From Arenicola marina (Eukaryota; Annelida; Polychaeta; Arenicolidae): DNA of 64,000 nt. The position numbers and the translations under genes were made by a program. Position 1 is the first letter of the stretch, and every line of letters begins with the position of its first letter. The notes beneath the pieces were generated by a model. That model saw only the letters and a list, made by a program, of their open reading frames with translations, had not been told where the DNA came from and did no database searches. Where the stretch lies: NCBI GenBank assembly GCA_964019135.1, contig OZ025263.1, positions 30,813,639-30,877,638 of the forward strand, given 5' to 3'. This document shows, in pieces, positions 14,457-64,000 of this stretch.

Positions 14457-14632
14457 GGCACGGGCGCTGGAACGGAAAGGGGTCCTGATACGTTGGTGTA
14501 TACCGCCTGTTTTAGCTGCCAATATATATGTATCTATTACATGGGATCTTCTACATCAATTTTGTTGCAGGCGCCAGTTATGTTCTTATGGCCTCAAGTG
14601 TTATGAGTAATATGTGAACAATCTCGTTTTTA

Positions 14633-15034
14633 AGTTGCATATCGAGCTCTTTCCCGCCAAAACTAAAGAGATTAAAATACAAATAAGCATCAATCCTTGT
14701 GTCATTCAAGATTCTCTTGTCTATATTCCACGCATTCCAGACTGCCAAATGAAGTCTCTTAGCCTTGCCCGTGATATCAATTCACCACAGTTTTCAACTT
14801 AGTGGTAAACGTCATCAGTTTGTGTGCTTAACGGTGCTTTGTTATAAGTAGCAGTGCTGCGACAGAGTTCTGCGGTGTCACGGTATAGACACCTTTGCCA
14901 CATCACAGCCGAAACGGCGATGTTTATCAGGTTTCTAAATTAATAGAATGAAATAATCTATCGAGTGTTTTTGCTAATTTTGATATAAATTTCGCCTGGG
15001 CTCAGTTTTGGCAGGAAAGAGCTCGACATGCAAC
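14633..15034. mobile_element. Inverted-repeat element upstream of acidic-protein gene
   Basis: A ~34-bp arm at 14633-14666 (contains CGAGCTCTTTCC) returns inverted at 15001-15034 (GGAAAGAGCTCG) with few mismatches. The 330-bp interior has no coding capacity. It may be a non-autonomous DNA transposon; no target duplication was identified. Confidence 0.5.
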
Positions 15035-15147
15035 TTTAACGCAACCATTCCGTCAGTGCTTGTAGTGTAAGTGATCTCATTCGTATTGGTAGCACCGAGG
15101 CAATGACTTGGTGAAAGGTGCCATTGGCGCGAATTGGACGCATTGGG

Positions 15148-17581: not shown

Positions 17582-17854
17582 TTGTTGTATCATTGCTGTG
17601 AGCAGCTTTAACATGAGCAATGCCCTCTTCAAAGTGAATGTTCAATTGCAAGTATATCTATTTGTCTATATTCACTGTTGTGGACGTAAGTATGGTTTTT
17701 CCTCTGGGTACCGTGGATCATGAGATTGTATAATTGGGGGCTTATTGTGAACCAATTGCCAGGCTTTCTACTTATTAAGCAACGATTGAAAGTAAAGCTC
17801 CTTACGTTGCAGCAAGGTTCTCAGTAACAGTCGCATAAATTAACATATATATAT
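17582..17854. other. No feature seen
   Basis: Unique AT-rich DNA between the 19-bp array and a small GC-rich inverted-repeat element. Confidence 0.3.
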
Positions 17855-18415: not shown

Positions 18416-18639
18416 TTTTTCAGCATTGTGAACATTTTACAAATCTCCCTAGCGGCTGACAGCAAAAGCAGATTGTATTTTTTTCTCTTGTTGACCTCTT
18501 TCCAATATAAGGGCACAGTTTGACAAATTGTAAGATTCGTGCAATTTTACTGACAATATCCGCTTTGTAGGTGACAGGCGGACCAATTTGCTGAATGGTA
18601 TTGAATGGAGTTGCATCTAGCGTACAATACCAATATGCC

Positions 18640-20395: not shown

Positions 20396-20631
20396 CGAGA
20401 TAACGAAGTGAAATGTAGCTGAGGCAGATGTTTCAAAAGGAATCAACAGTAGAGATCCCCGATTCCGAATGAGTGTTAACAGAAGCGAGATACAGCTGAA
20501 AGGGAGAGAAAATAGAAGAGAAGCACAGGTCAATTGCGACTAGGTACTGATAGTCCACCAGCAATTTGATCTTAACTACCTTAACATCTGGTACAAATGA
20601 ATATATGTAATATGTCTTCCGTATGACTTAC

Positions 20632-26495: not shown

Positions 26496-26695
26496 NNNNN
26501 NNNNNNNNNNNNNNNNNNNNNNNNNNNNNNNNNNNNNNNNNNNNNNNNNNNNNNNNNNNNNNNNNNNNNNNNNNNNNNNNNNNNNNNNNNNNNNNNNNNN
26601 NNNNNNNNNNNNNNNNNNNNNNNNNNNNNNNNNNNNNNNNNNNNNNNNNNNNNNNNNNNNNNNNNNNNNNNNNNNNNNNNNNNNNNNNNNNNNNN
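26496..26695. other. Assembly gap (200 N)
   Basis: Exactly 200 unknown bases. The round length suggests a placeholder of unknown true size. The left flank (GTGATCTCACTGGCTTATTATGCA...) recurs at about 46574, so the gap edge lies in a repeat. Confidence 0.98.
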
Positions 26696-29947: not shown

Positions 29948-31320
29948 TTTTTTTTGTATAAACTTTATTTATTTAACGAGGTTACCGATAGCGAATACAC
30001 ATATCAACGGCCACCTCAACATGTAACAGAAATGTGGTTGTGGAGATGAGGTTAAGTCATTAACAGGTACAGTTGATCAAATATACAGAAAGTTCAAATT
30101 CAATACAGTGACAAAGATTTAGTGGCATACAACCCTGAAAATCAAATCGACAGCATAGCTCTTAGATAAACCGACCTGTTTCGGAAATGAAAATTTGCAC
30201 TGCTTTAAATAATTTAGTATTATCTTCAAGGTTAATGTTGGAGGAACCGAATAAGAGGAGATTGCAGAGACTAGCGAGTTGGTTCTTAGACGCAGCCGTA
30301 AGATCCAAGATAAAACCATATTCAACAACGAAGGCGATACCATTTAGAAGTTCATTGCAAAGATTGTTATAAGTTGGACATTGTAGTAGATAGTGGATTG
30401 AATCTTCAGGTTTTTTAGTACAACCGTTTTGACAGTATTTGGTGGGGATGAAACCATAGTTGTACCTATGAGCGTTGAGGCCACTAAGGCCAAGACGCAG
30501 TCTGCAATGATTGACGGCTGCATAACCCGTAAACATGTCATACAGTGCATTGCGCGAACTGAAAAAACGTTCTTTATATGAAGATTTAAATGACATACAT
30601 GACCCCGACTGCCTCAGTTCAGGCGGCAAGTTGTTCCATGCGCGAGCTGTGCTCCACAAGAAAGAGTTCATAACATAACTTTATTTACAGCTTAGAATGT
30701 ATAAATCAGTACTTCTGCGGAGCACATGGTGAGAAATATCTGAGGTCTGGGGTGGAACGAGAGACGAGAGGTAACTCGGAGATAAATTGTTAATCATCTT
30801 ATATAGCAGACAGAGACTAAAATAAGTACGTCTGGTAGATAACAGTTCAACACCAGTTTCTGCAATAAGTTTAGCATTAGACGTGCTGGCGTATGCCCTC
30901 GTCGCCGTGAGTAATGCCTGGCGCTGCACGCCCTCTAGTTTTTCGCTTTGATACTTAGTAAGGTTGCCGTGAAAGACAGGGGTGGCGTATTCTAATAGTG
31001 GTCTAATATGCGTTTTATAAACGCATAACTTGGTTTTCCTATCAACTTGCTTAGGCATACGCTTCAATAGAGCAACAGACTTAGAAGATCTGCACACCAT
31101 GTTGTTAACTTGCGTATCCCAGTATGTTTCTGGTGAGAGTGACACCAAGGTGGGTATGACTGTCTACGCGCCGTATTTTGGTTGAACCCAGGTACAAGTC
31201 TAGTTCATTAGGTCTCTGAAGCTTCTTACTTAAAGTCACATACACTGTTTTCGTCGGATTAAAAGTTATTCTATTTGGTTGTAATATTTTATTAATCTTG
31301 CGATATGACTTGGGCAAGAC
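29948..31320 (-). mobile_element. 5'-truncated, broken LINE (non-LTR retrotransposon)
   Basis: Minus-strand frames from 31317 to 30162 carry the C-terminal part of a LINE reverse transcriptase. They show the F-N-P-x-K-T region near 31260, HTHLGV near 31150, then the YxxHIRPLLEYATPVF segment. The last frame has a WNNLPPELR, FKxxYK-like C-terminus. The copy is dead. A frameshift near 31140 separates the first two blocks, and an in-frame TAA at 30681-30683 separates the last two. The catalytic RT core is missing by 5' truncation. The 3' side ends in T-rich sequence (A-rich on minus) near 29948. It sits ~420 bp upstream of the first visible exon of ACE gene A. Confidence 0.85.
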
Positions 31321-31744: not shown

Positions 31745-34700
31745 TTAAGCACAATTGGTGCTGACCTGGAGAAAGCATACAGTACTGCTAAGCTCTGCAA
31801 CGCTACGAAATGTTACTCCCTGGACCCCGGTAAGTATCGAAATCAGTGGCAAATCATGAAGGAATCATTTGACGATCACTGTCGGCCCATATGTATGGGA
31901 TATGGTTCTCAATTTTATTGTCGTAATCATAGGCGTGTCCAGGGGCGGGGGGTGGGGGGGGGGGGGGGGGAGGGCATAGGGGTACGTGCCACCCATTTCA
32001 GAGTCTAAAGTATATCAGTGCCCCCCTTTTAAATCTCTGTGCTCCCCGCCCTCCCGGTCGTCAAAAAAATTATGGGCCCCTCGGTCGCAATTTTGTTCAG
32101 CTCCCCTCTCTTCCGGTAGCAATTTTGTTCAGCCCTTACCCCCTTCCGCTCGCAAGTTATTCCAGCCCCCCCCCCCCGCCCCCCGCCCCGTCCTACGTCG
32201 TCAAGCTTTTTATTATTCTTATTTTATATTTTTTATGTTGTTTTCCCCTTTTAAAGATTCCTGCACACGCCCCTGTTAATATTGTTTTGATCCCTACTAA
32301 ATGCAGATGTAGTGGAAAGCCATATTAGAAAGGAACGAATGGGGTTCAGAAAGAATACGTCATGCTTCAGAAGACTATTAGAACGATCACTGTTACAGTA
32401 CATTACAGTAAGGCTTGAGACAAAGCCAATGATTTGTTTTTACTTGACGAGATGTGCATGAAAAAAATGCATTTTTTTATTCTGCTTCATGCAATCTGTA
32501 ATAATGACAAAAGTCATTATCATATCCAGACTTGACACGGATCCTGACGAGTTCCCGCGATTGGGATGAGCTGTTGTGGGTCTGGAAAGGGTGGCGAAAT
32601 GTGTCCGGAAAGCAGATGAAATCCAAGTACCAGGAGTTCGTGGAGCTCCAGAACTCAGCAGCCACGCAAAACGGTCAGTCCGCCATATTGGATCAGTGAG
32701 CCCGCCATGTTGGATCAGTCAGTCCGCCATGTTGGAGCAGTGAATCCGCCATGTTGGATCAGTCAGTCCGCCATATTGGATCAGTGAGCCCACCATGTTG
32801 GTCAGTGAATCCGCTATATTGGATCAGTGAGTACACTATGTTAGATCAGTTAGTCCGCCATATTGGATCAGTGAGCCCGTCATGTTGGATCAGTCAGTCC
32901 GCCATGTTGGAGCAGTGAGTCCGCCATTTTGGATCAGTCAGTCCGCCATGTTGGAGCAGTGAATCCGCTATATTGGATCAGTGAGTCCACTATGTTAGAT
33001 CAGTTAGTCCGCCATATTAGATAAGTCAGTCTGCCATATTGGATCAGTGAGTCAGCCATGTTGGATCAGTGAGTCCACCATGTGGGACCAGTGAGTCCGC
33101 CATGTTGGATCAGTGAGTCCGCCATGTTGGATCAGTAAGTCCGCCATGTTGGATCAGTAAGTGCACCCTGTTGGATCAGTGAGTTCGTCATGTTGGATCA
33201 GTGAGTCCGCCATGTTGGATCAGTGAGTCCACTATGTTAGATCAGTTAGTCCGCCATGTTGGATCAGTGAGTCCGCCATGTTGGATCAGTAAGTCCGCCA
33301 TGTTGGATCAGTAAGTGCACCCTGTTGGATCAGTGAGTTCGTCATGTTGGATCAGTGAGTCCGCCATGTTGGATCAGTAAGTCCACCATGTTGGATAAGT
33401 CAGTCCGCCATATTGGATCAGTGAGTCCGACATGTTGGATATGTCAGTCCGCCATGTTGGATCAGTCAATTCCGGCATATTTGAGTGTGTAGTCCGCGGT
33501 ATTGACTAGTTTAGCCGCCATGTTGGATGTCTAAATCAGACCGCCACTGATGCACAGCTAACTCGAAAACTGGCGGCTGTTTTATTCCATTTGCCATTCT
33601 TCGCTTGATGCTTGACCCGAATATTTCTATTTGTCCCAAAGCCATGATAAGCTGGACAAAAGAAGTTGTTCTTTCATCGCAAGCCTTTTAATTGAGATTT
33701 TAGAATAATTTGCCCGCCCAAATTACTGGAGTTATCTGGATTGTCGTATTCCCTTCTCTGGACACAGAGTACGCGGACACGGGTGAGTACTGGCGATCCT
33801 GGTATGAGTCGGACACGTTTGAGACGGACTGCCTCCGGCTGTGGGAGGAGGTGAAACCCCTCTACCAACACCTGCACGCCTACGTCAAGAGGAAGCTGAT
33901 GGCCCGCTACGCCGACAGGGAGTTCCCCAGCTCCGGACACATCCCGGCACACATCCTCGGTGAGCGCTGTCTGGATCACATTGGCGGATCCATCCGGATC
34001 AAAAGCCGAGGGGGACGTTTATTTGCCGTTCATTGATCAGTTAATGCGGAGATTTGCAGCTCTAACGCGATCCATTCTAAGGATTTCTGTCTGAAACGGC
34101 TATAACTAACACATGAGCGATACCACGCAACGATTGTAAGGATTACAGCCCACATATTGTCGCCAAGACACACACTTGTTTGACCAGAATGACGCGGTAG
34201 CATGTTCGGGTCTCCATAATGTATGGGACTATGTTGAATACACATGAACATCAGATGTTTTTCATTGAATCAAAAATTGCCTGTGGGCAAATATAATGAC
34301 GATGCAAATGTCTGTATATTGAAGGGAATATGTGGGCACAGCAATGGACCAACCTGGTGGACATTGTCAACCCGTACCCCTCCCGGGCCCCGATAGATGT
34401 CACTGCGGCGCTGGTGGAGCAGGTCAGTGGGAGATCATACTTAAGTTCTCGGTCGCAAGGTGGCTCATGAGCACCACTACAAGGAGCTGGTGAGGTTACG
34501 ATGTAAAGACCCTTTTCGTACGCAAGCTAAGTTAGGCAGCCTAAGTTTTGCACGAAAAAGCGCCTTTCGTCGCAGCCTCTCACAAACGTTACTAAGGGTT
34601 GGCCGATACGAGTACTTGAGGCGGGAGTTCAATAAATGGAACAGCCTGCAATGTAATTTGCATACACAAAGTAACCGCGTAACAGATGGCGCGTGCAAAA

Positions 34701-37700
34701 GGGGAATGGTGATTTCTGATTGGTCGTTTTTGCGTCGCGCACTCAAGAGGGCGCTGCCCATAAAAACAGCGCATTATGGGGCAGTGGGTCGATTGTAGGA
34801 AGAATACAGCGTTACTCGTCAGACTGAAAAATACTAGCTTTCGTGAAGGATCCCTTGTGTGATCCCCTAATCGGTATATTAGGCCGATTGCGCAGGGTAC
34901 AGGCTTTCTACAGATATATTTAGTTTATAAATATGGGCCCTAGCTGAGGAATTGAGTAGTCGCCTTGAGGCAGGGCTGGACGCTTGCCCAGCAGATGTAG
35001 TCAGAGGCGGATCTAGGAATTTGCCAAGGGGGGGGGGGGTTGCTCTCTGAAAAACTTGCGACCGAGAGGGGGGGGGGGCGCTGCTTGGAGAAGCTGACTT
35101 TAACAGTGTATGTTCAGGTTCCCAAGGTTGCAACCCCCCTAACCCCCCCCCTGGATCCGCCCCTGGTAGTAGATGCCCCTAGCTGTAGAAGTTGTCGGTG
35201 TCACGAACGGTTTCAGAGGCCTACATGATATACATGATTGAGGTTTGGCCGGCCCATTATAGTCACTGACGTTGTGGCCATTGGATCTGTCGTGTCATCT
35301 ATTGCTGCTACTATCATATCTAGTTGGAATGGCACGTAGAAGTCCGTATGTCGGTAGCTATGAAATGACTCCGTGAAATATGATGCGTGGCCCGATTTAT
35401 GAATATCGGCCAATAAGATAGTTTTGGTTCTATTTTTTCGTGCCGTGTTTGAAAGATTAGCAGGATTTAGGGGTAAACAGGAATTGTCCAGGGGGAAGAA
35501 TGCCGTTTTTTAATGCAAAATCTGAGGCGTGGACCCCTCTTATTTTGAGGAAAAATCTGAAGCGGCGTGGACCCCCCCCCCCCCGCCCCACGGTTCCCGG
35601 TTCCAAGTTTTCAGTGGCCTCTCCTCCCCCGGTCGTCAAACAAATAGTGGACTCCCGGTCGCAATTTTGTTCAGACCCTACCCCCGGTCGCAAGTTTCAG
35701 TGGAACCCCAACACCCTATTCAAATTCTGGGTCCGCCCTTGATCATCAGATACTTCCAGAGCGTATTAACTGTTTTCACATCTCATCGAGATTATTTGAT
35801 TTACAGGGTTACACGGTGCAGCGAATCTTCAACATGTCCGAAGAGTTCTTCACGTCTCTAGGGCTCATCCCCATGACGACAGCATTCTGGCAGAATTCCA
35901 TGATAGTGAAACCCGACGACCGGGAAGTGGTCTGCCACGCCTCAGCCTGGGACTTCTACAACGGAAAGGACTTCAGGTCTGGTCACCCCGGCGTATTTCT
36001 AACTATGTGTATCCACTTTGCCATCTGTGGTACAGATGGAGGAGGTTTGCTCATTTTCTAATCGTTGCCAAATAGATGGCTCGATACTCCGAGACTAAGC
36101 CCCGCCCACGCTTGGGTCCTTTTTCGTTAAGGAGTGAGAAGTACTCATGTCTGAAACTGACAAGAAAATGACACACTGCTTTGTTTGTCGGACTTGTTTG
36201 TCGGACTTGTTTGTCGAACATAACGCACGTGAAAGACGTTTTTCGCCACATGATTGGATAAAAGCAGCCAGTGGCGTCAATCAATGACTGACAGTCGCAA
36301 TCGGTCTATTCTATATACCACATGGTACAAAGTTGCCATCTACTGCTTGAGCCATTCAAAGTCACCCATGCGTGGCAGGCACACTCTTGTAATGGCTACT
36401 CGTGGGTGATTCTTCACCAGATAGTGCCACTGGACGCATTTCTTTGGTAACCCGGATATATTCCCAAGGTGGACCGAATGCACACATTACGCATCGGTTT
36501 ACCGCCCGACACATTTTTCACACGGCTCGCGCGCGCGCATTCATTCGGTATGCCGATGTGCCCCGTTCAAACAGCCCGGGACTTGGGAGAAGATAGAAAA
36601 GTGACTGTCTAGGCTGGTTCCATTGCCCCTAAATGAACGGGACATGACGAGTCTGAACATTTCATTGACATTCGGCGTAGCCCGACCGGCAGGTCCGGAG
36701 GAGCCTGAGTAAACCGGGCCGCCTACCGGTCCTGGCCCAAAGAAATGCGCCCATTGATAGGCCGAGTATCCCTCATGGTTCGACTTTTTTTCGCAATATC
36801 TTATTTTAACAGGAACCATCGTGGATATATTCACAGCCATTTATTGTCACATAAAGAAAGCAAATCATTTCTGTCTTGTCCCGTAGAATCAAGCAGTGCA
36901 CAGATATTACAATGGACTGGCTTATTACCACTCATCACGAGATGGGACATATTCAATATTTTCTCCAGTACAAAGACAAGGCCATGGAGTACAGAGACGG
37001 GGCTAACCCAGGTATAACTGCTTTTCTTCCAGGTGTCGTTAGGTGGTGGAAACATGCTGGAAAGAGGAACTGTTTAGTCATTAAAATTCACGATTTATGA
37101 GGCAAATATAAGGTAGCTTTAATATGGCGAATCGAGCGATAGCGTCATACAAAACGATCATTTGGGGTTCTTCTTATAGTTTATATTAGCAGTTTTCGGT
37201 TAGCGATAATAGGGGATTTTGCAGCATCATTCATAATATAATTATTATATTTCCATGACTCGTTCTTGTTTCCACCATGTTCCACGGACTATACTGACCT
37301 TTTGTCTGGATTGCAATGAATGCGATTTAATTAACGTAATAACCAAATCATACAATGTTTCTCTCCTAGAATCAAGCAATGCACAGACATAACCCAGAAA
37401 TGGCTGGAAACCACCCATCATGAGATGGGCCACGTTGAGTATTATCTCCAGTACAAAGATAAACCTGTTGTGTACCGACGCGGGGCAAATCCAGGTAGCC
37501 ATGGGTATACCCAGCCTTGTAAATACTAGGTACCTTATCTACATATATCATTGAAATGAATTGAGTATATGAACTCTGTCTGCTTTTGCTATATGCTGAT
37601 TCTTCCCGGCACTATTCAAATAGGTGTTTCTATTAAGTGTCGTTAGACCTGTTAAAGAACATGGCTACCACAACATGCAACCTTACACTCGAATTCAAAC

Positions 37701-40700
37701 TGGAATCACTCCAATATAACTAGTCATACAATGTCAGTTTGCCTGACATGAATGTTATACATTTATCTGATCTCAAAGGTTCCATTGGACTCACTGACTT
37801 CCAGGATTATGCGATCTACAGTAAAGAGACTACTAATGAAATAATTGATGAACGTTACTTTGGGGACGGGAACACTTTTTTTGATGGCCATGTTCTTGAC
37901 GAGGTCTAATAACTATGAACATCTTCCTTTTGCGAGGATTATGCATGCGGTGTTTCAGTACAAAGTTACCCATCGACTCAACCAAGCATGTTTTAACATC
38001 TCTTCCTGGAGGATCTTCTGTGCTTGACTCTTCGTTAAGGTTGCGACAAGGCTTCACGGTCACCACCGTCTGCTATATACAGTTCTCGCAATTGGGGATT
38101 TTTAGAAGTTCCATATGATATTCTTCTTGACGTATAGTATACTAATCACATATCGTAACCACATATCTCACAAAGGTTTGCATGTAAATACATTTCCAGT
38201 CGTTACGCGAACGCCGGATGTCTCTGCATTGCTTGAATCAATATCTTATAATTATATCTAAGTATGCATTAAAGTACAGTCGCAAGTTTTAGAATATTCG
38301 CTCTAAAGGCACGCTTGTAAACGTGAATGTTTTTGGCATCCATGTGAAGCGCAAATCTCAGTCGGAATACATGATTAGTTAAGTTATTACATGCTGAAGA
38401 CATATCTATATGAAAACGTTTCGAGAAACACAGGTCTAACGTAAAATGTTGCTGAGACACAACTAATTAATCTGGCTAAATCGTGAATGACGTCATCATC
38501 TCAGGGTTCTGATTGTTCGTTGTGCGCTTGTTGCCAAGGTTTCCACGAGGCTGTTGGTGACGTCATGGGTCTGTCGGTGTCCACTCCGGAACATCTGAAG
38601 GAAGTCGGCCTCTTGACGGAGATTTCCCTGGACGAGGGTAAGGCGGTACTACCTGGATCCTATTGTGGGTTAGGCTTCAGCGCAGTCATTGTAAATAGAC
38701 GGATTCGGGGGAGGAGGGGAGTCCCTGGTGTCGGGATCCCCCGTTTTTTTTGAGGACGAATGCTGTTTTTCAATGACATATGAAGACTAATTAGCCATCT
38801 GAGACGTGGATAACCCCCCCTCCCCCCCACACACACCCAGGTCTTAAAAATATAGTTTCAGAGTCCCCTATCCCCGGTCGCAATGTTTCAGTGGAACCCC
38901 CCCTCCCCCTTTTCAAATTTCTGGATACGGCCCTGCTATAAATATATTGACGGATTTACAATTACAAGATCATGGTATTCCACTGCGAAACACCACGGTA
39001 TACGCAGTGAATTAGGGGCAAAACTTTGTCATCTTTTTGCTCAACAGTTTGGCGTCATAACATGATGACCAAATTATTTGATCAACTAAACTAAATCCTA
39101 CTTATAACTTATTAAGTTCATTTAAAGTCAAAGTCATAAATGCCGTAGACACACGTTTCTGCCCATATTTTCTGCGAATTTGCCTCGATCACTCTAAAAA
39201 TCCCTGACGTGAGAAAGCAACACTAGACCATTTTAATGATATCAAACTTACCTTTGTAATGCGATGTTATCCTTTTTAATGACACAAAGAATATTTCTTC
39301 ATGCTGACACTCCGTTGGCAGAAAACGCTCTGCCGCCAAAATACTAAGACACGCGTCATAAAATGATGGTTGCCATGGCGCCAAACGTGCTTTGAACAAT
39401 ACATGCTCTATATTTATACCAGCCACGAGGATGCCATGGCAACTATAGAGCCTTTCATTGTCTGTGATTTAGTCTAGTTGTGAAAGTGTGTCTGCTCCCA
39501 ATGGAGTGTCAGCATGGAGAAATATTGTTTGTGTCTTAAAAAAGGATAACCTCGCAGTACAAACGTAAGTTTAGTATCATTAAAATGGTCTAGTGTTGCT
39601 TTTTCACGTCAGGGATTTTTGGAGTGATCGAGGCAAATTCGCAGAAAATATGGGTCGAAACGTGTGTCTACGGCATTTATGACTTTGACTTTATGTAAGC
39701 TTATTAACGTTCTGTGCCATTGCGTTAGAAAAATATACTTATCTCTATCTCTAGTAAGAATTGCATATAACACTATAATGTTCACACAATCGTGGCATCA
39801 ATGTTAACTGTTATCTATTGTTATAAGCCATCCATATATATGTCATTTTTGGGATGGTGGGAACAGTACTAAACACGTGGCAACTTAAACGCCGGATATT
39901 CAATTTGCGAATACAGTAATGTTGCAATCATTATTTGATTGCATAGTATGACGTTAACTTCTCGATGGGCCAGGCCCTGGAGAAGGAGGTCTTCAAGGCA
40001 ATGTCGGTGTAATTATTTGATTGCATAGTATGACGTTAACTTCTCGATGGGCCAGGCCCTGAAGAAGGAGGTGTTCAAGGCAATGCCGGTGTAATTATTT
40101 GATTGCAGAGTATGATATTAACTTCTTGATGGGCCAGGCGCTGGAGAAGATTGCCTTCTTGCCCTTCGGTTACCTTATCGACCAGTGGCGTTGGAGTGTT
40201 TTTCGGGGGGAGACGACGCATGAGGACTACAACAGGAAGTGGTGGGAGCTAAGGTTGGTCTCCGTGAGCCAAAGCAGCAATTCGGATTGACCTAATTATC
40301 TGTCCAGTCCAGTCTGGGGCCGCATTCATAATGGCCACTAAGGCTACGACACTAGACGTAGCGCCAAGTGGAAGATTTGTCGAGCGATTATCGGGATCAA
40401 AGTACATAACTAGTCACCCGAGAAGTGAATTTCTGAATTAAGAAAGTGCTAAAATTATATTGAAGATTATTTCTTAATCATGAACAACACCACAGCGAGC
40501 TGGTAAAAGACGAAAATACACTTGTCGTGCGTAATTTACTAGGGGATTAGGAATACGGCCCCAGGGTATTGCTGGGAGCAGTTTGCACAAGATTGATATG
40601 TGAATTCATGCTGTACAAGGATAGCAGTGTTTTATCGAGGTGCAATTATATTCATGGGTGATTGCGTGTCGTTGAATTGAAGTAAAAAAAAGGGACAATC

Positions 40701-43700
40701 ATAATCTTGATATGAAAGCGCGTGGGTTTGTGGGTTTTTCTATGACGTAATTTATATCTATGACGATCATCTCTCTATGACGGTCATCTCTCCATGACGG
40801 TCATCTCTCTATGACGGTCATCTCTCTATGACAGTCATCTCTCTATGACGCTCATCTCTCTATGACTGTCATCTCTCCATGAAGATCTACATATGACGGT
40901 TATTTCTCTGTGGCGGTCATCTTTCTATGAAGGTCATCTTTCTATGGCTGTTATCTCTCTCTGACGGTCATCTATATGACGGTCACTTCTCTATGACAGT
41001 CATCTCTCTATGACATTCATCTCTCTATGACAGTCATCTCTCTATGACGGTCATCCCTCTATGAAGGTCATTTATCTATGACGGTAATCTCTCCATGGCG
41101 GTCATCTCTCCATGACGGTCATCTCTCTATGACGGTCATCTCTCTATGACGGTAATCTCTCCATGGCGGTCATCTCTCCATGGCGGTCACCTCTCTATGA
41201 CGGTCATCTCTCCATGGCGGTCATCTCTCTGTGGCGGTCATCTCTCTATGACGGTCATCTCTCTATGACGCTCATCTCTCTATGACTGTCATCTCTCCAT
41301 GAAGATCTACCTATGACGGTTATTTCTCTGTGGCGGTCATCTTTCTATGAAGGTCATCTCTCTATGGCTGTTATCTCTCTCTGACGGTCATCTATATGAC
41401 GGTCACTTCTCTATGACAGTCATCTCTCTATGACATTCATCTCTCTATGACAGTCATATCTCTATGACGGTCATTTCTCTATGACGGTCATCCCTCTATG
41501 AAGGTCATTTATCTATGACGGTAATCTCTCCATGGCGGTCATCTCTCCATGGCGGTCATCTCTCTATGACGGTCATCTTTTTTATGGCGGTCATCTCTCT
41601 ATGACGGTCATCTCTCTATGGCGGTCATCTCTCCATGGCGGTCGTCTCTATGACGGTCATCTCTCTATGGCGGTCATCTCTCTATGGCGGTCATCTCTCT
41701 ATGACGGTCATCTCTCTATGACGGTCATCTCTCCATGGCGGTCATCTCTCCATGGCGGTCATCTCTCTATGACGGTCATCTCTCTATGGCGGTCATCTCT
41801 CTTTGGCGGTCATCTCTCTATGACGGTCATCTCTCTATGGCGGTCATCTCTCTATGACGGTCATCTTTCTATGACAGTAATCTCTCTATGACGGTCATCT
41901 CTATGACGGTAATCTCTCCATGGCGGTCTTCTGTCTATGACGGTTATCTCTCTATGACGGTTATCTCTCTATGACGGTCATCTCTCTATGACAGTCATCT
42001 CTCTATGTCAAGTATTGCTCTTTCGCCTCGATCGACATTTGTGCAATGCTCGTTTCTCTTGCTCCGGCAAATGTGAAATCGGAATCAGCGTGGTTGTCAC
42101 TATTCCAGATGCAAGCACCAGGGCGTGAGTCCCCCCGCCATGAGAGAAAATGACGACTTTGACCCAGGCGCCAAGTACCACATCCCAGGCAACACGCCAT
42201 ATATTAGGTAAGTACGGAAGCCCAGTAGTGCCATGGGGTGTCAGCGCGGTGACGGGTGGCGGCCGCACAACTCACATAAAACACCAGGGTCAATTAATGA
42301 TTTCTGTGAATGCTCCTATTGAAACAAGAAATATTGGTATTGGCTCACCCTGCTGCAGTATAATCCATCAAGATTGCTGAGGAATTGCTACTCTGCATGA
42401 TTGATACTTTCGATGATGCTAGATCAGTTTGCTTTGACTATATATGTGTGTATTATATTTTTATGTATTATATTTGTGTGTATAATATTTGTATGTATTA
42501 TATTTGTGTGTATTATATTTGTATGTATTATATTTGTGTGTACGTACGGTTCGCGTCATTGACACCCTTTCTGCTGTTTTCGCTCAGTCCTTTTTTGTTC
42601 GACGACACCATGCCCCCCCTAACGTCATATCTATTATGTATTATATATATTTATACATAAATTGTGTTATTTCAGGTATTTTGTGAGCTTCATCATCCAG
42701 TTCCAGTTCAGCCAAGCTCTGTGCGATGCTGCCGGATACAACGGAAGCCTGCACCGTTGCGACATCTACCGGTCAACTGCCGCGGGGAAGAAGCTCGGGT
42801 AAACTATTCCCCGCGCCGTTTGATCAATGTGTGACGGACCGTTCCATCAACACTCTGCCTTCGATTCACTCCGCTAGGGCTCCATTATATCTCTGTTGTC
42901 GCCTACTTCTTCAATGCCTTTTCACACTCGCTCGCTAGGGCGGCGCTGCACAAATTGATAGGAAAAAATGCTCCGCGCATTTTTACGAATTAGTGCCGGG
43001 GACCCAGACGAAGCCTAATATCACACGGTATCAGGTGAACAAATCTCTCTCGGATATAACTTTTTCCAAGCGGTACAATTAGTGTTTTGCTGTATTAAAT
43101 ATACAGAGATCGTTATTTGTATGTTTTATTGTTGAAAATAATAATGTTGCAAGAAATTACAACTGATTTGACCGTTTTTCAAAAATCTTGAAATCCGCTC
43201 CCGGCCGACAGCAGCGGTAAAATCGGAGCTTGCGTAGCGCCACCGGCTTTAATATATTAATTTATATTTATGTAGAGAGGATGGAAACATTGCGTCGGAG
43301 ATTGATCGCAATGTTCCCATCCCCTCCAAAAAGATATAAATTAATATATTAAGGCTATAGATGCACACGATGTCATATTTAATGTCATACTATTTACATA
43401 CATGCATATGTATTCAGAAATAGTAAATGCCATATGATGGAATTTATTGGTGCCCTGCCTTAATAGCTACATCCCTAATACTAACGTTGTAGTATAGGTG
43501 TGCTACTGCACTTATCTTATTGCCTGTGTCATCAGACTAACCAGTTAAGTCGGCTAAAATAAAACCGAGTTAATTCGGCTAAAACCTACATCGATGGCTT
43601 ATGACCATGGCTTATTACAATCGCCTATGACCATGGCTTATGACCATGGCTTATCCCATATGTTGCCCCGAGAGCTAATCACGACCACTCTAGATTGAGG

Positions 43701-43985
43701 CTGTGGTGCACGGTTTGCAGGGACATGCTGGCGCTGGGCTCCTCCAAGCCGTGGCCGGAAGCCATGGAGGCCATCACGGGTCAGCGCGACATGAGCGCCT
43801 CGGCCCTGATCCGCTACTTCCAACCTCTCTACGACTGGCTCAAGGTGCAGAACGAAGGACACGACATTGACTGGGACGACGAGTGTCCGGGCGGGAGTCT
43901 GGCCTCCGCGGGGGTCAGCATCGCTACTCTACCTATCGCCATCGCCATGGCAACCATCCTGGCATGCCTTCTGATCCGAAAGTAA
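31745..43985 (+). CDS. ACE-family metallopeptidase, gene A (membrane-anchored form)
   Basis: M2-family zinc dipeptidyl carboxypeptidase (angiotensin-converting-enzyme type), which removes C-terminal dipeptides at the cell surface. Exons homologous to B exons 3-13: 31745-31829, 32530-32673, 33768-33959, 34325-34422, 35807-35976, 36887-37011 (8a) or 37370-37494 (8b), 38539-38637, 40109-40253, 42109-42207, 42676-42798, 43721-43985. With one exon 8 they form one open frame of 514 residues. Visible are CHASAWDF, zinc motif HEMGH, third ligand in FHEAVG, substrate and chloride residues in KYH and PYIRYF, and both disulphide Cys pairs. Unlike B, the C-terminus ends in a hydrophobic segment ([20 protein letters not shown]), so it is probably membrane-attached (TM more likely than GPI). 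Exons 1-2 (signal peptide, N-terminus) were not found upstream, where a LINE and a gap lie. Confidence 0.88.
32674..33535 (+). repeat. 22-bp minisatellite starting at the exon 4 donor of gene A
   Basis: About 39 units of GTCCGCCATGTTGGATCAGT plus GA/CA start at the first intron base after A exon 4. The first unit is the donor itself (CG/GTCAGTCC). Many units carry GTGAGT or GTCAGT, so the intron begins with a ladder of donor-like sites. The paralogous donor in B (CG/GTCAGTCTT) has no array. Confidence 0.93.
34440..35806. repeat. Gene A intron 6: dispersed repeats
   Basis: The intron holds a partial MITE-C match (34455-34530) and unique sequence with a 112-codon frame (34460-34798) that I do not accept as a gene. 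Two poly-G/GGATCC-type repeats follow (34995-35166; 35457-35745, the latter with CGGTCGCAATTTTGTTCAG and CCCGGTCGCAAGTTTCAGTG). Confidence 0.55.
36085..36310. mobile_element. MITE family A copy (one arm)
   Basis: Shares AAGCCCCGCCCACGCTTGG, CATAACGCACGTG, CACATGATTGGATAAAA and the end AATCGGTCTATT with the copies at 54101 and 55729. It contains a small local triplication of TTGTTTGTCGGAC. Confidence 0.7.
36431..36753. mobile_element. MITE family B copy
   Basis: Terminal inverted repeats GGACGCATTTCTTTGG and CCCAAAGAAATGCGCCCA bound ~320 bp that contain CATTACGCATCGGTTTACCG and a GCGCGCGC stretch. Same family as 48126, 53741 and 54196. Confidence 0.8.
36887..37011 (+). CDS. Gene A exon 8a, first copy of the catalytic zinc-site exon
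   Basis: 125-nt exon, acceptor TTGTCCCGTAG, donor CCCAG/GTATAA, enters in phase 2 and leaves in phase 1 like B exon 8. It encodes the disulphide Cys and [17 protein letters not shown]. Both zinc His and the catalytic Glu are present. It differs from exon 8b at about 10 of 42 residues. It is very likely an alternative to 8b (see finding). Confidence 0.88.
37370..37494 (+). CDS. Gene A exon 8b, second copy of the catalytic zinc-site exon
   Basis: 125-nt exon, acceptor TTTCTCTCCTAG, donor TCCAG/GTAGCC, same phases as 8a. It encodes [17 protein letters not shown] followed by a [14 protein letters not shown] end. It is 358 nt downstream of 8a. The visible exon 8 of gene C is of this type in both protein and donor flank (GTAGCCATGG). 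Confidence 0.88.
37495..38538. other. Gene A intron 8, no feature seen
   Basis: AT-rich, no further exon recognised. Small frames at 37833-38118 show no ACE similarity. Confidence 0.4.
39106..39710. mobile_element. Fold-back element with ~200-bp arms
   Basis: The left arm (39106-~39310) returns inverted in the right arm (~39485-39710). Paired landmarks are AAAGTCATAAATGCCGTAGA with TCTACGGCATTTATGACTTT, and CTCTAAAAATCCCTGACGTG with CACGTCAGGGATTTTTGGAG. The ~180-bp interior has no coding capacity. It is a non-autonomous fold-back transposon in gene A intron 9. Confidence 0.85.
39931..40148 (+). repeat. 82-bp tandem repeat of the exon 10 acceptor region (gene A)
   Basis: Two upstream copies plus the functional one, each starting TTATTTGATTGCA(T/G)AG at 39931, 40013 and 40095. 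Each copies the last ~15 intron bases and the first ~40 exon 10 bases (GATGGGCCAGGCCCTGGAGA), then ~26 bp of intron. The two decoys keep an AG at the acceptor position (GCATAG). Confidence 0.9.
40316..40562. mobile_element. MITE family C, full copy
   Basis: Imperfect terminal inverted repeats GGGGCCGCATTC / GAATACGGCCCC bound 247 bp. It shares internal sequence with 28325-28535. Lies in gene A intron 10. Confidence 0.7.
40757..42006. repeat. 17-bp minisatellite in gene A intron 10, ~73 copies
   Basis: The unit is TCTCTCTATGACGGTCA with CCATGGCGG variants. A block with the rare motif GAAGATCTAC at 40881 and again at 41301 shows a 420-bp higher-order period. The 119-codon frame at 41532-41891 is a repeat artefact. 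Confidence 0.95.
42440..42545. repeat. 15-bp AT-rich tandem repeat
   Basis: About seven units alternate GTATTATATTTGTGT and GTATTATATTTGTAT in gene A intron 11. Confidence 0.85.
43252..43354. mobile_element. ~100-bp fold-back MITE in gene A intron 12
   Basis: Arms TAATATATTAATTTATAT and ATATAAATTAATATATTA continue inward as GATGGAAACATTGCG versus CGCAATGTTCCCATC. Nearly the whole element is one hairpin. Confidence 0.8.
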
Positions 43986-44115
43986 GCTGACCGGAAGTAG
44001 CCTGACCGAAAGCATGCTGACCGGAAGTATGCTGGTCGGAAGTTTGCTGACTGGAAGTAGGCGAACCGAAGTAGGCTAATCAGAAGTAGCCTGACGGAAG
44101 TAGGCTGACCGGAAC
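43986..44115. repeat. Degenerate ~16-bp repeat in gene A 3'UTR
   Basis: Directly after the stop, units like TGACCGGAAGTAGGC recur about eight times. The same repeat type lies after the stop of gene C (60110-60280, minus strand). Confidence 0.75.
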
Positions 44116-47194: not shown

Positions 47195-50100
47195 ATGGCG
47201 ACGCAAGGACGGCTAGCGGTGTCGCTCCTACTGCTGCAGCTGCTGGGGTGTTCAGCAGCCCAGAACACTGACGAGGCAGAGGCGGCCGCCCGGGCCCTGC
47301 AGTACACAGAGGAGGCCCAGGTCGTCTACTTCAATGATGCCACCGGCTATTGGAACTATCAGACCAACATAACGGATTACAACCTGGCCATCGCGGTACG
47401 TACGTGACAATTCAAACTTTCTAATTGACATGTATTTAATATAAGATTTGAAAATACTATACATTAAATATTATATTCATATTAAGTGATAAGTCAAAAT
47501 TGAAAACGTAACCGTTCAATTGACAGGTATTTAATATTATCTTTGAAAACACTATGCATTAACTTTATTTATATCAAAATGGACAGTAGTAATTTATAAT
47601 GACATAAATTTGTTTGCACTAATTAACATTAAAACAATGCATTTTCAAAATCGAAACGACTAAAGCGAGATAATCCTATGGTGATCAAATCATCATTTAT
47701 TTCTTTATTGCACATGTATAAATTAACACTATGCGTGAATTTGGGTCCATTTACGCCTGGTTCCGTTCAGCAGAGGGGCCGCCTCGATAGCTCAGAGCGC
47801 TCGCCTTGAGTGCTCTGGCCACCTGAGAGCCTAACGGCACGTGGACCGGTGGTTTGCGCCACGCTTTGACCATGTTTTTGTGGTCGCAGGTTAAAGATAC
47901 CATGTCATTCTTCGCAAAGAGTATGGGGTTACCCCGGGGACATGGCTCCGCTCTCCTTTCCTTCTCCCATTGACGCGATATGACCCAAAGTCTTTAAAGC
48001 TACCTGAATACACAACCAACCAACCGTACATTAGATTGTCAGTGATGACAAGCAGCATGGCGTATTATTTTGGCGCATAGATATAAGCCTACTGTCGCAC
48101 AATGCCACTGTTTCTTTGACATACTGGCTGCATCTCTTCGGTAGCGGGTATATACCCAAAGTAAACTGAATACTCACATTACGCATCGGTGTACCGCCCG
48201 AATTTCTTCCCCCGGGTCGGGTGCGCGCGCATTTATTCATCATGCCGATCGTCTCCCGTTCAAAATAGCACCGGCCATTCGGCAGAAGATGGCGACTCAT
48301 TGGAAAGTGGCAGCCGAGGCTGGTTCCATGTCCCTTGAATTAATTCACCGGACTTTACCGAACTTAACATATTATAAAAACGCTCCGACCGAGCTGATTT
48401 TGACGGTGAAAAAAAAGGGGGGGAGGGGCGCTTACAGTGGAGCCCCCCCCCCCAAACCCAGCAATGTATTATGCCCCCCCCCGGGGGGTCACCGCATAAT
48501 ATTCTGGATCAGGTCGACGTGCTTTAATTAGCATATTTATTAATGCCGAAATTGTGGACGATAGGTGGAAGGCGGCGCAGCCTCGGCAGCCTTCGACAAG
48601 CTGAAGGGAGAGGAGGCGGACAGTTTCGCCTGGGAAGGCTTCTCTGACTACAGCCTTAAGAGGCAGTTCAGCAAGATCGGAGACCTGGGCTACTCTGTGC
48701 TACCCGAGGCACAGTACCAGAGGGTATGACATAGGCATAAGATCACATTACCAGAGGGTATGGCATAGGCTTAAGGTCACATTACCAGAGGGTATGACAT
48801 ACACATAGGGCCTCAATACCAGAGGGTACGACATAACAAAAGTGCTGCTTCAATGTTTTCCTTTATTTCTTGTCGCATGTGACCCCTATGAAGTTAACAT
48901 GTGTACTTCAAAGTTACAAGTATAATTTGTAACAAAACTAAATTACCGCGTTGAATTTAACCGAAACTCGTATTAGTCCGGCTCAACCATTATTGGCCAA
49001 TACATTATATGATAGCATTTGTAATGTGATAATTGTCGTGGTTTGGTTTTTAGTACAGCGAGCTGAATAACGAAATGGAGGCAATCTACAGCACGGCCAA
49101 AGTGTGCAATAGGCCAGGAGACACCTCAGGGACATGCTATCCCCTGGAACCCGGTATGTTGTCTGATATATGTCAATGCTTATATAGTTTGTGTTATGGA
49201 TAAGCGGGAACTTTGTGTATGAAAGCCAGAGGGATCTTTGTTTTCAATAGTCCGAAGCCCAAGAAGACAATTTTAACCTATTATAGTTCCAGATACATTA
49301 TTAATGTTGAACCATATGTGGAAACTGCCAATGTTAAATAGCGACTGCCTTGAGTCGGTTGTGCCCTTGTGGAAAATCGGACTGGCTGAAGGCAGCGGTA
49401 GCTTGCTAGTGTCTAAAAGGTCTAAACGTGACGACTTGTCAGTAGGGAGCTGTCAAAGAAATATATACAATTAAATGGATATGAAGAGCCTGCACAACTT
49501 GTAACCAGTATAAACAGCAAACTTGTAGCTGCCATAAGCGGCCTCCCATGGCCATATGTGACGCCTATAATTGTGCCTGTTAACAACTTCATTCATCAAG
49601 AGAGGTACTTTATCTTGTGTCAGACCTGGTGACAATCATGGCCAATTCCACGGACTGGGACGAGCTGATCTGGGCGTGGCAGGGCTTCAGGAACGAGAGC
49701 GGCAGGAAGATGCCAGATATGTACCAGGAGTTCGCCGGCCTTCTCAACACGGCAGCTACTATGAACGGTCAGTCTTCAAAGGGGTGGATCCGGGAATTTA
49801 AAGAGGCGAGGGGGGGAGGGGGCTCTGAACAAAACTGCGACCGGGAGATCCACTAATTTAATAACGACAGAGGGGGGGGGGGGGGGGGAGGGGGGGGGGT
49901 GACCCTCAAAGCCCAAGGTAGCACAATTGGTAATTTCTGAAATTAAAAATACTAGCACGCATTCATTATGTAATAAAATTTACCAAATTTATAGAATGAT
50001 GCTATAGGGCTATTGTACCAGATTATTGTCAATGCCAACATATTCAAAGAGTTGCCACCGACTTAATAATTAATAATATTGTCAACGATTCACTCCTGTT

Positions 50101-53100
50101 TTGCATTTGCCGAAAACAGACGAAAGTAACCGATAACCTGTAAATCCAGGTTACGCTGATAACGGAGAGTACTGGCGCTTCTGGTATGAGGACCCGGAGT
50201 TTCGGGCTCAGTGCGAGGGTCTCTGGGATGACCTTCGACCCCATTACGAGCAGCTCCACACCTACGTCCGCCGGAAGTTGAAGGAGCGTTACCCGAACGA
50301 ACCATTCCCGAGCAGCGGGCACATCCCAGCCCACATTCTAGGTTGGTTGCCTCTTGATAATATTGTTACTGCATTTAATCTTTTGATTGTTTTGTTGATA
50401 TATAAAGTATTGTTAATGTGCCAACTTGTCATAGGAAAACGGAAGTATTTTTATCTTCGTTATTGGCCAAACACGCAGGTTCGTTCAGCCGTCATGAAGT
50501 CATCAATTCGTTACGCGACATATAGAGCGTTACCCCATCTGTGTGTAGTCCATATCTGTCACAATGGCTATAATTAATATGTTGTTTATTTTGCATTATC
50601 CGCTAGCATATATCGTCTTCAAGATCCATGTCATTACGAAATAAATCTCATCACGATTTTCATCAATTCATCACAAAATATAGTGCGATTAATGCCGGGC
50701 CATCGTGCCTTCTCTTTTGCTTTTCGAAGCTTGTATCGTGATATCCAGATCAAATACCAATGACTTCTACCCAATTAGTAATAGGAAAAGAAGCATTAAC
50801 TGATAGGGAAAAAGATTAAGGCCGCTTTCTTGGATTATTGGATGGTTGGTGTGATTTGGATTATTGGGTGTTTAACGTAATGTTTTAACAACCAGGGAAC
50901 ATGTGGGCCCAGGACTGGTCTGCACTGGAGCCTCTGATGAGACCATTCCCTGACAAGCCTGGCCTTGACGTCACCGACGCTCTTGTGGAACAGGTTGGTA
51001 TGGCTTATGACTTTATTGTGGATGATAGCTCAACCCAGATGAGCCAATAATTAACTTTTTGGGAACATATTCCACTTAATTTTTAGCAATCGACAACGAT
51101 ATAATATTGCTACTTTCTATTGGTCGGTCTTACGTAGTGTATAATGGCCGAGCCAGCCCTGCATCTCGCAAGCCGACTTTTTAATCACAGAAGAGTTACG
51201 ATGGTCTCTTGTCCTGTATATCCTGAGCACCCTGAAGCGGCATTGTCCTGCGTGGACGCCTGGCAACCAACACGACCCCCGGGGAGCCTTTATTAATGCA
51301 AGGCCTGTATCTGAGATTAGATCTCAAGCTGCTCATTACGCCGCCATGGTGCTGTTTGCAATACTATCCACACGATCCAAGTTCAAGCAACCATGACACA
51401 TGATCCTAATACCAGTTATTACGCGCAGGGATACAACGCAACAGGACTCTTCATCCTGGCGAATGAGTTTTTCACGTCGCTGGGCATGGAGCCGATGCCA
51501 CAGCCGTTCTGGGACAAGTCCATGATTCTGAAGCCTGACGACCGAGAGGTGGTGTGCCACGCCTCCGCCTGGGACTTCATGAACCAGATCGACTTCCGGT
51601 AAGGTCCAATTAACACATCTGGCGGCGTATTTGACTGGGCGCTTGCAGCGGCAGATCCATGATTTTGCCAAAGGGACAAGGAGAGGGCAGGGGGGGGGCA
51701 CAAGTCTAAAAAAAGTGGGTGCACGAGTCATTTTAGATGCCGCCGAAAATAGACGAAATTGGCCTTTTCACGCCGTGCAAGGGGTGCAAGTGCCGCCCGT
51801 GCCCCCCTCCCTGGATCCGCTACTGGCTTGTAGAACCAAAATCTCGTTCCACTGAAATCTCGCACATTTGGAAAGTTCTATTGCAGAACTAGAGAAAAAA
51901 GAAACATGTTATTTTCATGATAGATGTTGCAGGTATAAATTTTAAGAATATTGCGGATAAGCAAATGGCATGACGATGATTGCCTGATGCTAAACGCTGT
52001 GTAACGGTTTTGGGCGTTGCTTGTGAAGTGTTTCAATTAGTATGAAATATTATATGGTTATAAGGCCGTGGATACCCATTGGTGGAACGACACCAAGAAA
52101 ACTGCACAGTCACATGGTGAAGTGCACTGACATAAATATTCGCTTGAAACTCAATTTCTCGTTAAAGATCAATTAGACAAAATAAGATTGAGAACTAGAA
52201 CAGCGAAAGAAATGGAATGGGGAACGATGAAGGTTTACTTCCTCGAGGAGGGAAGGGGGGCAGTACAAGCACATTTCGCCCAAACGGAGCCGCTCTTCTT
52301 CTAGCTGTATTAAAATCTTGTATATGTGTATCCTTCGTCTTCAGCATCAAGCAGTGCACAGAGATAAACACAAAGTGGCTGATCACTACTCATCACGAGA
52401 TGGGACATATTGAGTACGATCTACAGTACAAGGAACAGCCAGTGCCATTCAGGAATGGGGTCAATCCGGGTAAGTACATCCGCACTCCAGGCAATGTTGA
52501 GATACCATGTTATCACTTAGGGACGGACGCCTTGATATACATCGGAGGCTCTGATTTGTTTTTCATTCATTAATATCTAATTTTAATTTCGAAATAATTT
52601 TTTTTGGTACTCTTGCTTTGCCTCTTACAGAAAACAAGTTTTTTCCTTTTTCGTTAACAAAAAATATGCCGTCGCCTATTAAAATGAATACATTTTGCAG
52701 ATTCCCCCAAAATAACGCTGACCTCGATCCCCATGGCGACAAAAACTAATTCAGCCCTCGTCGAACCCCCAAAAATAGTTTTGGCCTCCACAAACCACAA
52801 GCCATAGCCCCCCCCCCCCCCACTGGATATCAACTTCTATACTTGGTCAACCGCGACGGCCAAATGGCTTGCTGTCATCCACGTTTAATCCACTCAATGT
52901 TAGTTGTGGGATATGGAACTCCCGTTGGCCTATCCAACCGCGTGGGGAAATGCAGCATGACAAGTTTAAGAGGGGCCGGCCCGCTAGCTCAGTGGGTTAG
53001 AGCGCTCACCTTGAGTGCTCTGGCACGTGGATCGGTGATTCGCGCCCCGCTGTAGCTATGTCTGTGTAGTCGCAGGATAAAGATCCCATGTCCTTTATCG

Positions 53101-60109: not shown

Positions 60110-60280
60110 CGGTCTACTTCCGCTATGCCTACTTTCGTCATTTCTACTTCCGTCACGTCTACCTTCCGCTATGCCTACTTCCGCTATGCCTACTTCCGCT
60201 ATGTGTACTTTCGCTCTATCTACTTCCACCTCGCCTAATTTCGTTATTTCCTAATTCAGCTATTTCCACTTCCGGTCAGC
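60110..60280 (-). repeat. Degenerate ~16-bp repeat in gene C 3'UTR
   Basis: On the minus strand units like GGAAGTAGGCATAGC recur about nine times right after the gene C stop. This parallels gene A's 3'UTR repeat. Confidence 0.75.
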
Positions 60281-63200: not shown

Positions 63201-64000
63201 TCATACGTGTTCATATTTCACGAAAATATTTGAGCGAATATGCATTAAACCGCAGTATCATTGCCATTCATTAATATTTTAGTTTGTACTATAGTTTTTG
63301 TAGAAGACAATCACGCGGCTAAATGTTAAACACTACAGGACACAGGACAATCAAGCAATGCACAGGCATAATACATAAATTTGTTATATTAATGTCATCA
63401 AACAGCATATTTATTGCTTGAAATGTGAATGATCAAGATGTATAGTTCTGACGTGTGCTACATAAGGAAATGGTACGAATATAATGACATGCGAATCCAT
63501 TACACCGAGCAAAGGCTACTAATGAAGCAGGTCAACTAATATGTTACTTCCGAGGCCTCCACACGAGAAAGCACTAGTCAGCATCTGAATAAGTGTAGAG
63601 GGTTAATACACCTCAAGGCTAAAGGACACGTAGAAGTGGCGGATCCAGAAATTTAATTTACGAAAGGGGGGGGGCACCATTTATTTAATTCCTATCCAGG
63701 CGCGGATCCAGACGGAAACTTTCGGCGGGGGGGGGGGGGGGGCGAGGGGTGGTGCTAGTGAGGTTGTGCAGAAAGAATTCTCACTGTACCCCCTGTGCCC
63801 CCTTTTAGGGGGTCACGTGCCTTTTTTTGCCTATTTTCCAGCGAAGGGGGGGGGGAGGCACGTGCCCCCTGTGCCCCCCACCCCTTGGATCCGCCACTGC
63901 GTTGTATCGAGCATGGCGTGTAACCATGGCTACCTGGATTCGCCCCACTTCTGTAGACAATAGGTTTATCTTTGTATTGGAGATCGTATTCAATGTGGCC
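60281..64000 (-). CDS. ACE-family metallopeptidase, gene C (3' part, membrane-anchored form)
   Basis: Minus-strand exons homologous to B exons 8-13: 64000-63934 (partial 8), 62815-62717, 62216-62072, 61663-61565, 61097-60975, 60545-60281. Lengths and phases equal gene A. The visible frame is 265 residues plus stop. Substrate and chloride residues KYH and Y-I-R-Y-F and the Cys pair [13 protein letters not shown] are kept. The last exon differs from gene A at only 2 of 86 residues and has the same C-terminal hydrophobic segment. Exon 9 begins with an Ala codon (GCT) where A and B have the family's usual Gly before FHEA. The part with both zinc His lies beyond the right edge. Convergent with gene B. 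Confidence 0.9.
62217..62710 (-). repeat. 82-bp tandem repeat of the exon 10 acceptor region (gene C)
   Basis: Six decoy copies lie upstream (minus strand) of the functional exon 10 acceptor, with landmarks at plus positions 62295, 62377, 62458, 62540, ~62597 (partly deleted) and 62679. Period is 81-82 bp. Each holds TTATTTTATTGCAG-like intron end plus AGTATGACGTTAACT and the exon start. It matches the three-copy array in gene A. Confidence 0.9.
62850..63080. repeat. ~16-bp tandem repeat, gene C intron 8
   Basis: About 12 imperfect copies of TTCTTAGAAGTAGAAA. Confidence 0.88.
63349..63372 (+). pseudogene. Exon 8 5'-end fragment in opposite orientation
   Basis: AATCAAGCAATGCACAGGCA and the next bases match the first ~24 nt of gene A exon 8b with one mismatch. 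Here it is on the plus strand, inside an intron of the minus-strand gene C. Similarity fades after ~40 nt. Confidence 0.5.
63640..63900. repeat. Poly-G/GGATCC interspersed repeats, gene C intron 8
   Basis: GTGGCGGATCCAGAAATTTA then G-run, GGCGCGGATCCAGACGG then G-run, and a closing CTTGGATCCGCCACTG. Two nested or adjacent copies. Confidence 0.7.

Follow-up and report, generated by a model that had tools for sequence, protein, structure and literature searches.

A putative pair of mutually exclusive zinc-site exons in an ACE-like gene of the polychaete Arenicola marina

An ACE-like gene of Arenicola marina, here called gene A, very probably encodes an M2 peptidase with two mutually exclusive zinc-site exons, 8a and 8b, the exchange of which would alter the S1′ and S2 subsites and, probably, the choice of peptide. 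The gene lies in the window, i.e. the whole 64-kb stretch of DNA that was analysed (G000:C18:30813639-30877638; coordinates outside the window are on the same contig), which contains three ACE-like genes, the plus-strand genes A and B and the minus-strand gene C, which continues past the right end.

Gene A and its duplicated zinc-site exon

Gene A was assembled from plus-strand exons, of which exons 3 (31745..31829), 4 (32530..32673), 5 (33768..33959), 6 (34325..34422), 10 (40109..40253), 11 (42109..42207) and 12 (42676..42798) were recognised by their GT–AG splice sites and homology to ACE. Exon 7 (35807..35976, donor gtctgg) and exon 9 (38539..38637) are the upstream and downstream partners shared by 8a and 8b, and the coding part of exon 13 (43721..43985) encodes a hydrophobic C-terminal tail, with the stop codon at 43983-43985. 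Both 8a and 8b contain the zinc motif HHEMGH, and the third zinc ligand is supplied by exon 9, in the sequence FHEAVGD, which fits the pattern HEA[IV]GD. Against the Pfam M2 profile (PF01401) the 8a form of the protein scores 779 bits and the 8b form 778 bits, the match covering profile positions 99-579 of 581. The closest protein among the best 120 of 7995 matches is from Owenia fusiformis, with 66% identity.

The first 98 profile positions are absent from gene A because exons 1 and 2 fall at an assembly gap, a run of 200 Ns at 26496-26695. Decay of the gene through loss of these two exons was considered and rejected, as homology to the paralogous gene D (described below) starts right at the gap edge, at 26696, the first base past the Ns.

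Several other features of this part of the window were recorded. About 1.3 kb of gene A (29949-31265) is missing at the matching site of genes D and E, and this stretch holds two minus-strand ORFs (30162-30671 and 30681-31148) that look reverse-transcriptase-like by eye and have no Pfam match. A minisatellite-like array occupies 40700-42000 in intron 10, and long arrays of the same kind are seen at 1506-10142, 14974-17723 and 18617-20533, all of these being judged by eye and from ORF lists. On the minus strand, 11490-14522 is a 1010-codon ORF rich in charged residues and without a Pfam match.

Exons 8a (36887..37011, donor gtataa) and 8b (37370..37494, donor gtagcc), both on the plus strand and both with counterparts in genes C, D and E, lie between the single-copy exons 7 and 9. 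Each is 125 nt long, with identical phases and GT–AG sites, and each is preceded by tag and ends in CAG|gt. The original prediction had described two such exons, with these positions, lengths, phases and splice sites and with intact zinc and catalytic residues, and recomputation reproduced every one of these properties. It had also put their divergence at about 10 of 42 residues; the ten differences stand, and the exon total is 41, so that in gene A the two copies differ at 10/41 residues and 32/123 nucleotides.

Joining exons in silico gives four outcomes. Either of the joins 7-8a-9 and 7-8b-9 leaves gene A with an open frame of 514 residues from exon 3 to the stop, while the inclusion of both copies (7-8a-8b-9) yields ESSNAQT and then a TAA as the eighth codon past the 8a junction, and the omission of both (7-9) yields FPRGCW and a TGA as the seventh codon. 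It had been claimed beforehand that both exons together lead to TAA, that neither leads to TGA and that only a single copy keeps the frame, and these joins confirm it. In our model the spliceosome would link exon 7 to either 8a or 8b, and that exon in turn to exon 9; the both-in and both-out products would be lost because their frame breaks, and the reading frame alone could thus enforce single inclusion at the level of the protein.

A cluster of ACE genes retaining the pair

A search of the 867-Mb assembly gave 60 exon-sized ACE matches, 59 of them within one stretch of ~151 kb, in which five ACE genes are clustered; A, C, D and E carry the exon pair and B has one exon 8. Gene B, with exons matched from 47267 to 57632 on the plus strand, has its single exon 8 at 52346..52471 (plus strand, donor gtaagt), without duplication. 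In the minus-strand gene C, exon 8b occupies 63934..64000 of the window, where it is cut by the window end, and is complete on the contig at 30877696-30877572; exon 8a lies outside the window at G000:C18:30880078-30880202, again on the minus strand. The part of gene C beyond the window had been named as a place to look for the pair, and with it in hand both 8a and 8b are present. Gene D carries them on the plus strand (8a at 30923769-30923893, 8b at 30924252-30924376) and gene E on the minus strand (30975421-30975297 and 30974938-30974814). All 13 exons were detected in D and in E, matched singly, and the start of exon 1 in these genes is signal-peptide-like by eye.

All eight exon-8 copies of A, C, D and E are open, 125 nt long and bounded by AG and GT, and the same four frame outcomes are obtained in each gene when exon 7 is joined through to exon 9. 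Since both exons persist in four genes with their frames open and their splice sites intact, the pair is more than a chance arrangement. With 0-4 nucleotide differences per exon, A, D and E are copies of recent origin, and the lineages that independently retain the pair hence number two, A/D/E and C. The mutually exclusive arrangement put forward in the original prediction is supported, and is strengthened by the presence of both exons in C, D and E; on genomic evidence, 8a and 8b are a well-supported candidate for a mutually exclusive pair of catalytic exons.

The same loci bear on the possibility that 8a and 8b derive from two alleles, or two genes, misjoined during assembly. Gene A does adjoin the 200-N gap, near which the assembly is incomplete or could be misjoined, but this gap is the only N run in the window, 8a and 8b are spaced by an identical 358 nt in each of A, D and E (in C the distance is 2381 nt), and the order 7-8a-8b-9 recurs at four distinct loci of a single 38-Mb contig. 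The 32/123 nucleotide differences are, moreover, far too many for alleles, and we consider the chance of such an artefact negligible.

Age of the duplication and selection on the two exons

Between 8a and 8b of gene A, dN is 0.17-0.18 and dS 0.8-2.9 by two methods, and across A, C, D and E the corresponding ranges are 0.16-0.24 and 0.6-2.9. With 91/123 identical nucleotides, the two exons are about as distant from each other as they are from exon 8 of gene B, which they match at 89/123 (8a) and 86/123 (8b). All four 8a copies differ from all four 8b copies at 17 fixed nucleotides, and no site showed the pattern of within-gene conversion in a comparison of the A and C exon pairs. Judged by these figures, the exon duplication is old, predating the split of A and C, and under purifying selection; a recent duplication or an allelic origin of 8a and 8b is ruled out by the divergence.

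An old duplication may also leave behind a copy that is no longer used, in which case only one of the two exons would function, the other being a fossil or spare. Signs in keeping with this are seen in gene C. Its 8a has methionine at position 368, where 216 of 221 listed segments have lysine and none has methionine; its fit to those segments is at the 2nd percentile, and its dN/dS, 0.3-0.4 in the comparison with A, reaches as much as 0.8 in that with E. Gene C 8a may therefore be decaying, in which case one of the two alternative exons would be undergoing natural loss. The segments compared here came from 249 listed proteins, which gave 256 exon-8 segments, 221 of them distinct, the proteins being the top 120 matches in each of three sets (7995, 713 and 937 matches), which is not a random sample.

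The remaining copies speak against an unused exon. At dS values of 0.6-2.9, genes A, D and E have kept the frame, the catalytic residues and the splice sites in both copies, and most of the changes between the 8b exons of A and C are silent (dN 0.04-0.05, dS 0.5-0.7). In fit to the family, A-8a ranks at the 47th percentile of the 221 distinct segments, A-8b at the 70th and the exon of gene B at the 10th, so that both gene A exons look like ordinary ACE exons; an extraction demanding K368 gave percentiles of 48, 69 and 10, respectively. Both exons appear to be maintained by selection in A, D and E, with 8a of C doubtful. The original prediction had named relaxed selection on one copy across species as a refutation, and such relaxation is seen here in gene C 8a only. 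We therefore regard the single-exon explanation as unlikely, and favour the use of both exons.

The relationship between genes A and C is uneven along their length. By exon, dS between them ranges from 0.04-0.05 (exon 5) to 0.5-0.7 (8b) and is undefined for exon 6, and this unevenness suggests patchy gene conversion between the two paralogues. As further observations on this pair, their last exons (43704-43998 and 60268-60562) are 97.6% alike in opposite orientation, and around exons 8b-10 the genes are only about 84-88% alike. Tandem repeats of ~82 bp lie just upstream of the true exon 10 in both (39928-40109 in A and 62259-62714 in C, where they are longer); they include the opening 13-20 codons of exon 10 together with the preceding intron end, and E has one copy. 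A weak antisense match of 11 residues at 63350-63388 (E 0.08-4.4) was treated as chance.

Predicted effects on the S1′ and S2 subsites

Residues are numbered here as in human testis ACE, the numbering being taken from the alignment and from the zinc-site numbering in published papers. Of the positions assigned to subsites in the relevant table and passages of these papers, 376, 379 and 380 (S1′) and 391 and 403 (S2) fall within this exon (PMC12025037 Table 3, PMC11880972, PMC7024173). In gene A, 8a has D376, I379, T380, F391 and D403, and 8b has K376, E379, T380, Y391 and R403, i.e. four of the five published positions differ. The choice of exon would thereby swap residues 376, 379, 391 and 403 lining S1′ and S2, with 8a giving a C-domain-like S2 (F391 and the acidic D403) and 8b an N-domain-like S2 (Y391 and the basic R403). 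Mapped in this way onto known subsite residues, the earlier idea of a single gene encoding two enzymes that differ around the active site gains support, and the swap probably changes which peptides are cleaved.

In human somatic ACE these two S2 positions distinguish the domains, with F391/E403 in the C domain and Y369/R381 in the N domain (PMC11880972, PMC7024173, PMC12025037 Table 3). The relevant part of PMC7024173 attributes the preference of RXP407 and RXPA380 for one or the other domain to F391/E403 versus Y369/R381; the corresponding section of PMC11880972 agrees for RXP407, and cautions that inhibitor preference does not always follow from direct contacts at 381/403.

The number of subsite differences is not in itself exceptional. 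A hypergeometric test for their enrichment gave p 0.009, but p 0.067 once sites were weighted by their natural variability, and enrichment in the pocket was therefore retained as a description and discarded as proof. Among homologous pairs of the listed proteins with exactly 10 differences in this exon, at least four pocket differences were found in 31/263 pairs of a first set and 224/1311 of a larger one, so that the 8a/8b swap is in line with the usual difference between two ACE enzymes and does not amount to an exceptional clustering. Similarly, the pattern of change at 376, 379 and 403 (four alternative pairs) is not rare, occurring in 457/1311, 73/394 and 15/126 natural pairs with an equal number of differences. 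The pocket pattern also varies across the paralogues, with D391 and S403 in 8b of gene C and G376 in 8a of gene E.

The listed proteins do reveal a link between the two S2 positions. Where position 403 is charged, and with kinship ignored, it is acidic in 79/85 segments with F391 and basic in 39/66 with Y391. In a median of 26 of 48 phylogenetically independent F/Y pairs the Y member was the more basic one, against 3 in which it was the less basic and 19 ties (sign test, p 1.5e-5); the tree for these pairs was built without exon 8, and 223/246 segments had sufficient flank. The extraction pattern behind the 31/263, 224/1311 and F/Y-pair sets required K368. Across ACE homologues, residues 391 and 403 thus tend to change in step.

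How one exon might be chosen

Steric exclusion between neighbouring exons needs an intron that is too short to splice, of the order of tens of nucleotides. The introns between 8a and 8b, of 358 nt (genes A, D and E) or 2381 nt (gene C), are too long for exclusion of this kind by closely spaced splice sites. No U12-like donor was seen by eye in gene A when judged against the U12 consensus, the listed sites reading as U2-type GT–AG.

The original prediction had also proposed that an 11-bp complementary pair in the intron between the two exons, 37044..37054 (the left arm of the stem, plus strand) with 37267-37277, might help the choice. The pair exists, and is present in D and E; its proposed role fared less well, the stem being absent from C, where the left arm is not conserved, and a stem at least as long arising in 7/200 dinucleotide shuffles. 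As a general switch it is unlikely. The 8a-8b segment folded no better than 20 shuffles of itself (z 0.23), and neither this folding nor the 11-bp stem revealed conserved competing RNA pairing near the exons.

A block of the intron at 37247..37281 (plus strand), which holds the right stem arm, is conserved with gene C at 81% over 37 columns, and lies at a similar distance upstream of the 8b acceptor in the two genes (88 nt in A and 86 nt in C); it is a candidate regulatory element. The first six donor bases are kept in A, C, D and E, as gtataa for 8a and gtagcc for 8b, and, ranked by pairing with U1, both donors of gene A fall within the top 2% of the GT sites on the plus strand between 30000 and 60000. 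The best candidates for deciding the choice are the splice sites themselves and possibly the block upstream of 8b.

The donors are also relevant to a different proposal, namely that the pair serves the control of expression, both-in and both-out splicing acting as an off-switch by premature stop, and not the diversity of the enzyme. Both kinds of product stop early in all of A, C, D and E, and the U1 pairing of the donors at gene A exons 7, 8a and 8b is poorer than that at gene B exons 7 and 8, but the donors of gene A exons 4, 6, 10 and 12 are also weak or weaker, so that weakness is not peculiar to the pair. An off-switch would not, furthermore, require two different intact coding exons, and known specificity sites are among the differing residues. 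We hold it to be very improbable in place of enzyme diversity, although the two roles may be combined.

Comparison with known systems

The two predicted S2 types of gene A resemble those of the human enzyme, with 8a matching the C domain (phenylalanine with an acidic residue) and 8b the N domain (tyrosine with a basic residue). The route differs: in vertebrate ACE both pockets came about by duplication of a whole domain, whereas here they would be provided by alternative exons of a single-domain gene.

Mutually exclusive exons are already known in enzymes, as described for ketohexokinase in the pertinent passages of PMC6464065: the isoforms KHK-A and KHK-C each omit exon 3C or 3A, are tissue-exclusive and differ in their affinity for fructose. 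Ketohexokinase is, however, not a metallopeptidase, and in the ACE gene the swapped exon holds the zinc-binding and catalytic motif itself. CgACE of the oyster is likewise a single-domain lophotrochozoan M2 ACE, for which the splicing, intron and isoform passages of PMC3235092 report no alternative zinc-site exon. In the open-licence literature, as far as it was covered, no report of a mutually exclusive or alternative exon in ACE was found. The earlier statement that alternative splicing of the zinc-site exon is not known as a usual feature of ACE may need qualification, as the moth, bivalve-like, cricket and stick-insect cases described below could take the arrangement beyond this animal.

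ACE is among the best-studied peptidases and is a drug target. If the reading given here is correct, one gene yields paired enzymes in which the roles of positions of the 391/403 type can be tested, and one ACE gene could serve several peptides without domain duplication. Should the arrangement be widespread, many annotated invertebrate ACEs would show just one of two catalytic forms.

Indications from other animals

It is possible, although we hold it with a good deal of doubt, that a splice switch of the zinc-site exon is old, or has evolved repeatedly, in protostome ACE, yielding N-like and C-like peptidases. This reading draws on the four paralogues of A. marina, on moth and bivalve-like protein pairs, on tandem copies in a cricket and a stick insect, and on the coupled change of 391 and 403.

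The moth pairs are each from a single species. In Aphomia sociella, P0125 (isoform 2-T2) and P0170 (isoform 1-T1) share 647 aligned residues, of which 5/41 within exon 8 and a further 2 outside it are different, the exon differences including 376, 379 and 403, with 391 unchanged. The Chilo suppressalis proteins P0149 and P0168 likewise differ at 5/41 in exon 8 and at 2 places elsewhere, and the exon types TAAFFK and TSEFF are common to both moths. Cases from outside A. marina could be mimicked by tandem paralogues with conversion, by separate assemblies or by chimeric contigs; for Aphomia, the origin of P0125 and P0170 from contigs of different size is in keeping with tandem paralogues or two assemblies.

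A broader count of pairs differing in exon 8 only was made, using pairs that are near-identical on both sides and have at least four differences inside the segment compared. It gave 4/22 eligible pairs for exon 8 versus 16/253 over 13 partly overlapping control segments, single ones of which reach 5/32 and 4/22, so the excess is not clear. On its own this count proves little, and the argument from other animals rests on the same-species moth pairs and their shared exon types.

Two exon-centred region searches turned up gene models with tandem copies in Gryllus bimaculatus and Timema californicum. The Gryllus model (P0121) has copies with E376/E403 and K376/R403, and in the Timema model (P0122), read by eye, copy 1 has D376 and F391 and is cut short, and copy 2 has N376, Y391 and R403. 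Around the copies both models are irregular, in a manner suggestive of forced joining by the predictor.

P0079 and P0103 (635 and 640 residues), which look bivalve by kinship, differ at 7/41 residues in exon 8. Outside this exon, 74 differences were observed up to column 206 of 640 and only 2 after it, which may reflect alternative 5′ exons, gene conversion or a chimeric contig. Their source contigs, no longer than 2512 and 2172 bases, have no room for introns like those of gene A.

The oyster-like proteins P0047 and P0050 were rejected as a pair differing in exon 8 only, having 4/41 differences inside it and 37 places outside. P0050 agrees with the Saccostrea protein P0081 at 39/41 residues of exon 8 (flanks 90%), and P0047 is identical to P0038 in the exon (flanks 92%). 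This is a weak hint of two exon types in the oyster-like proteins, which lend correspondingly weak support to a protostome-wide switch.
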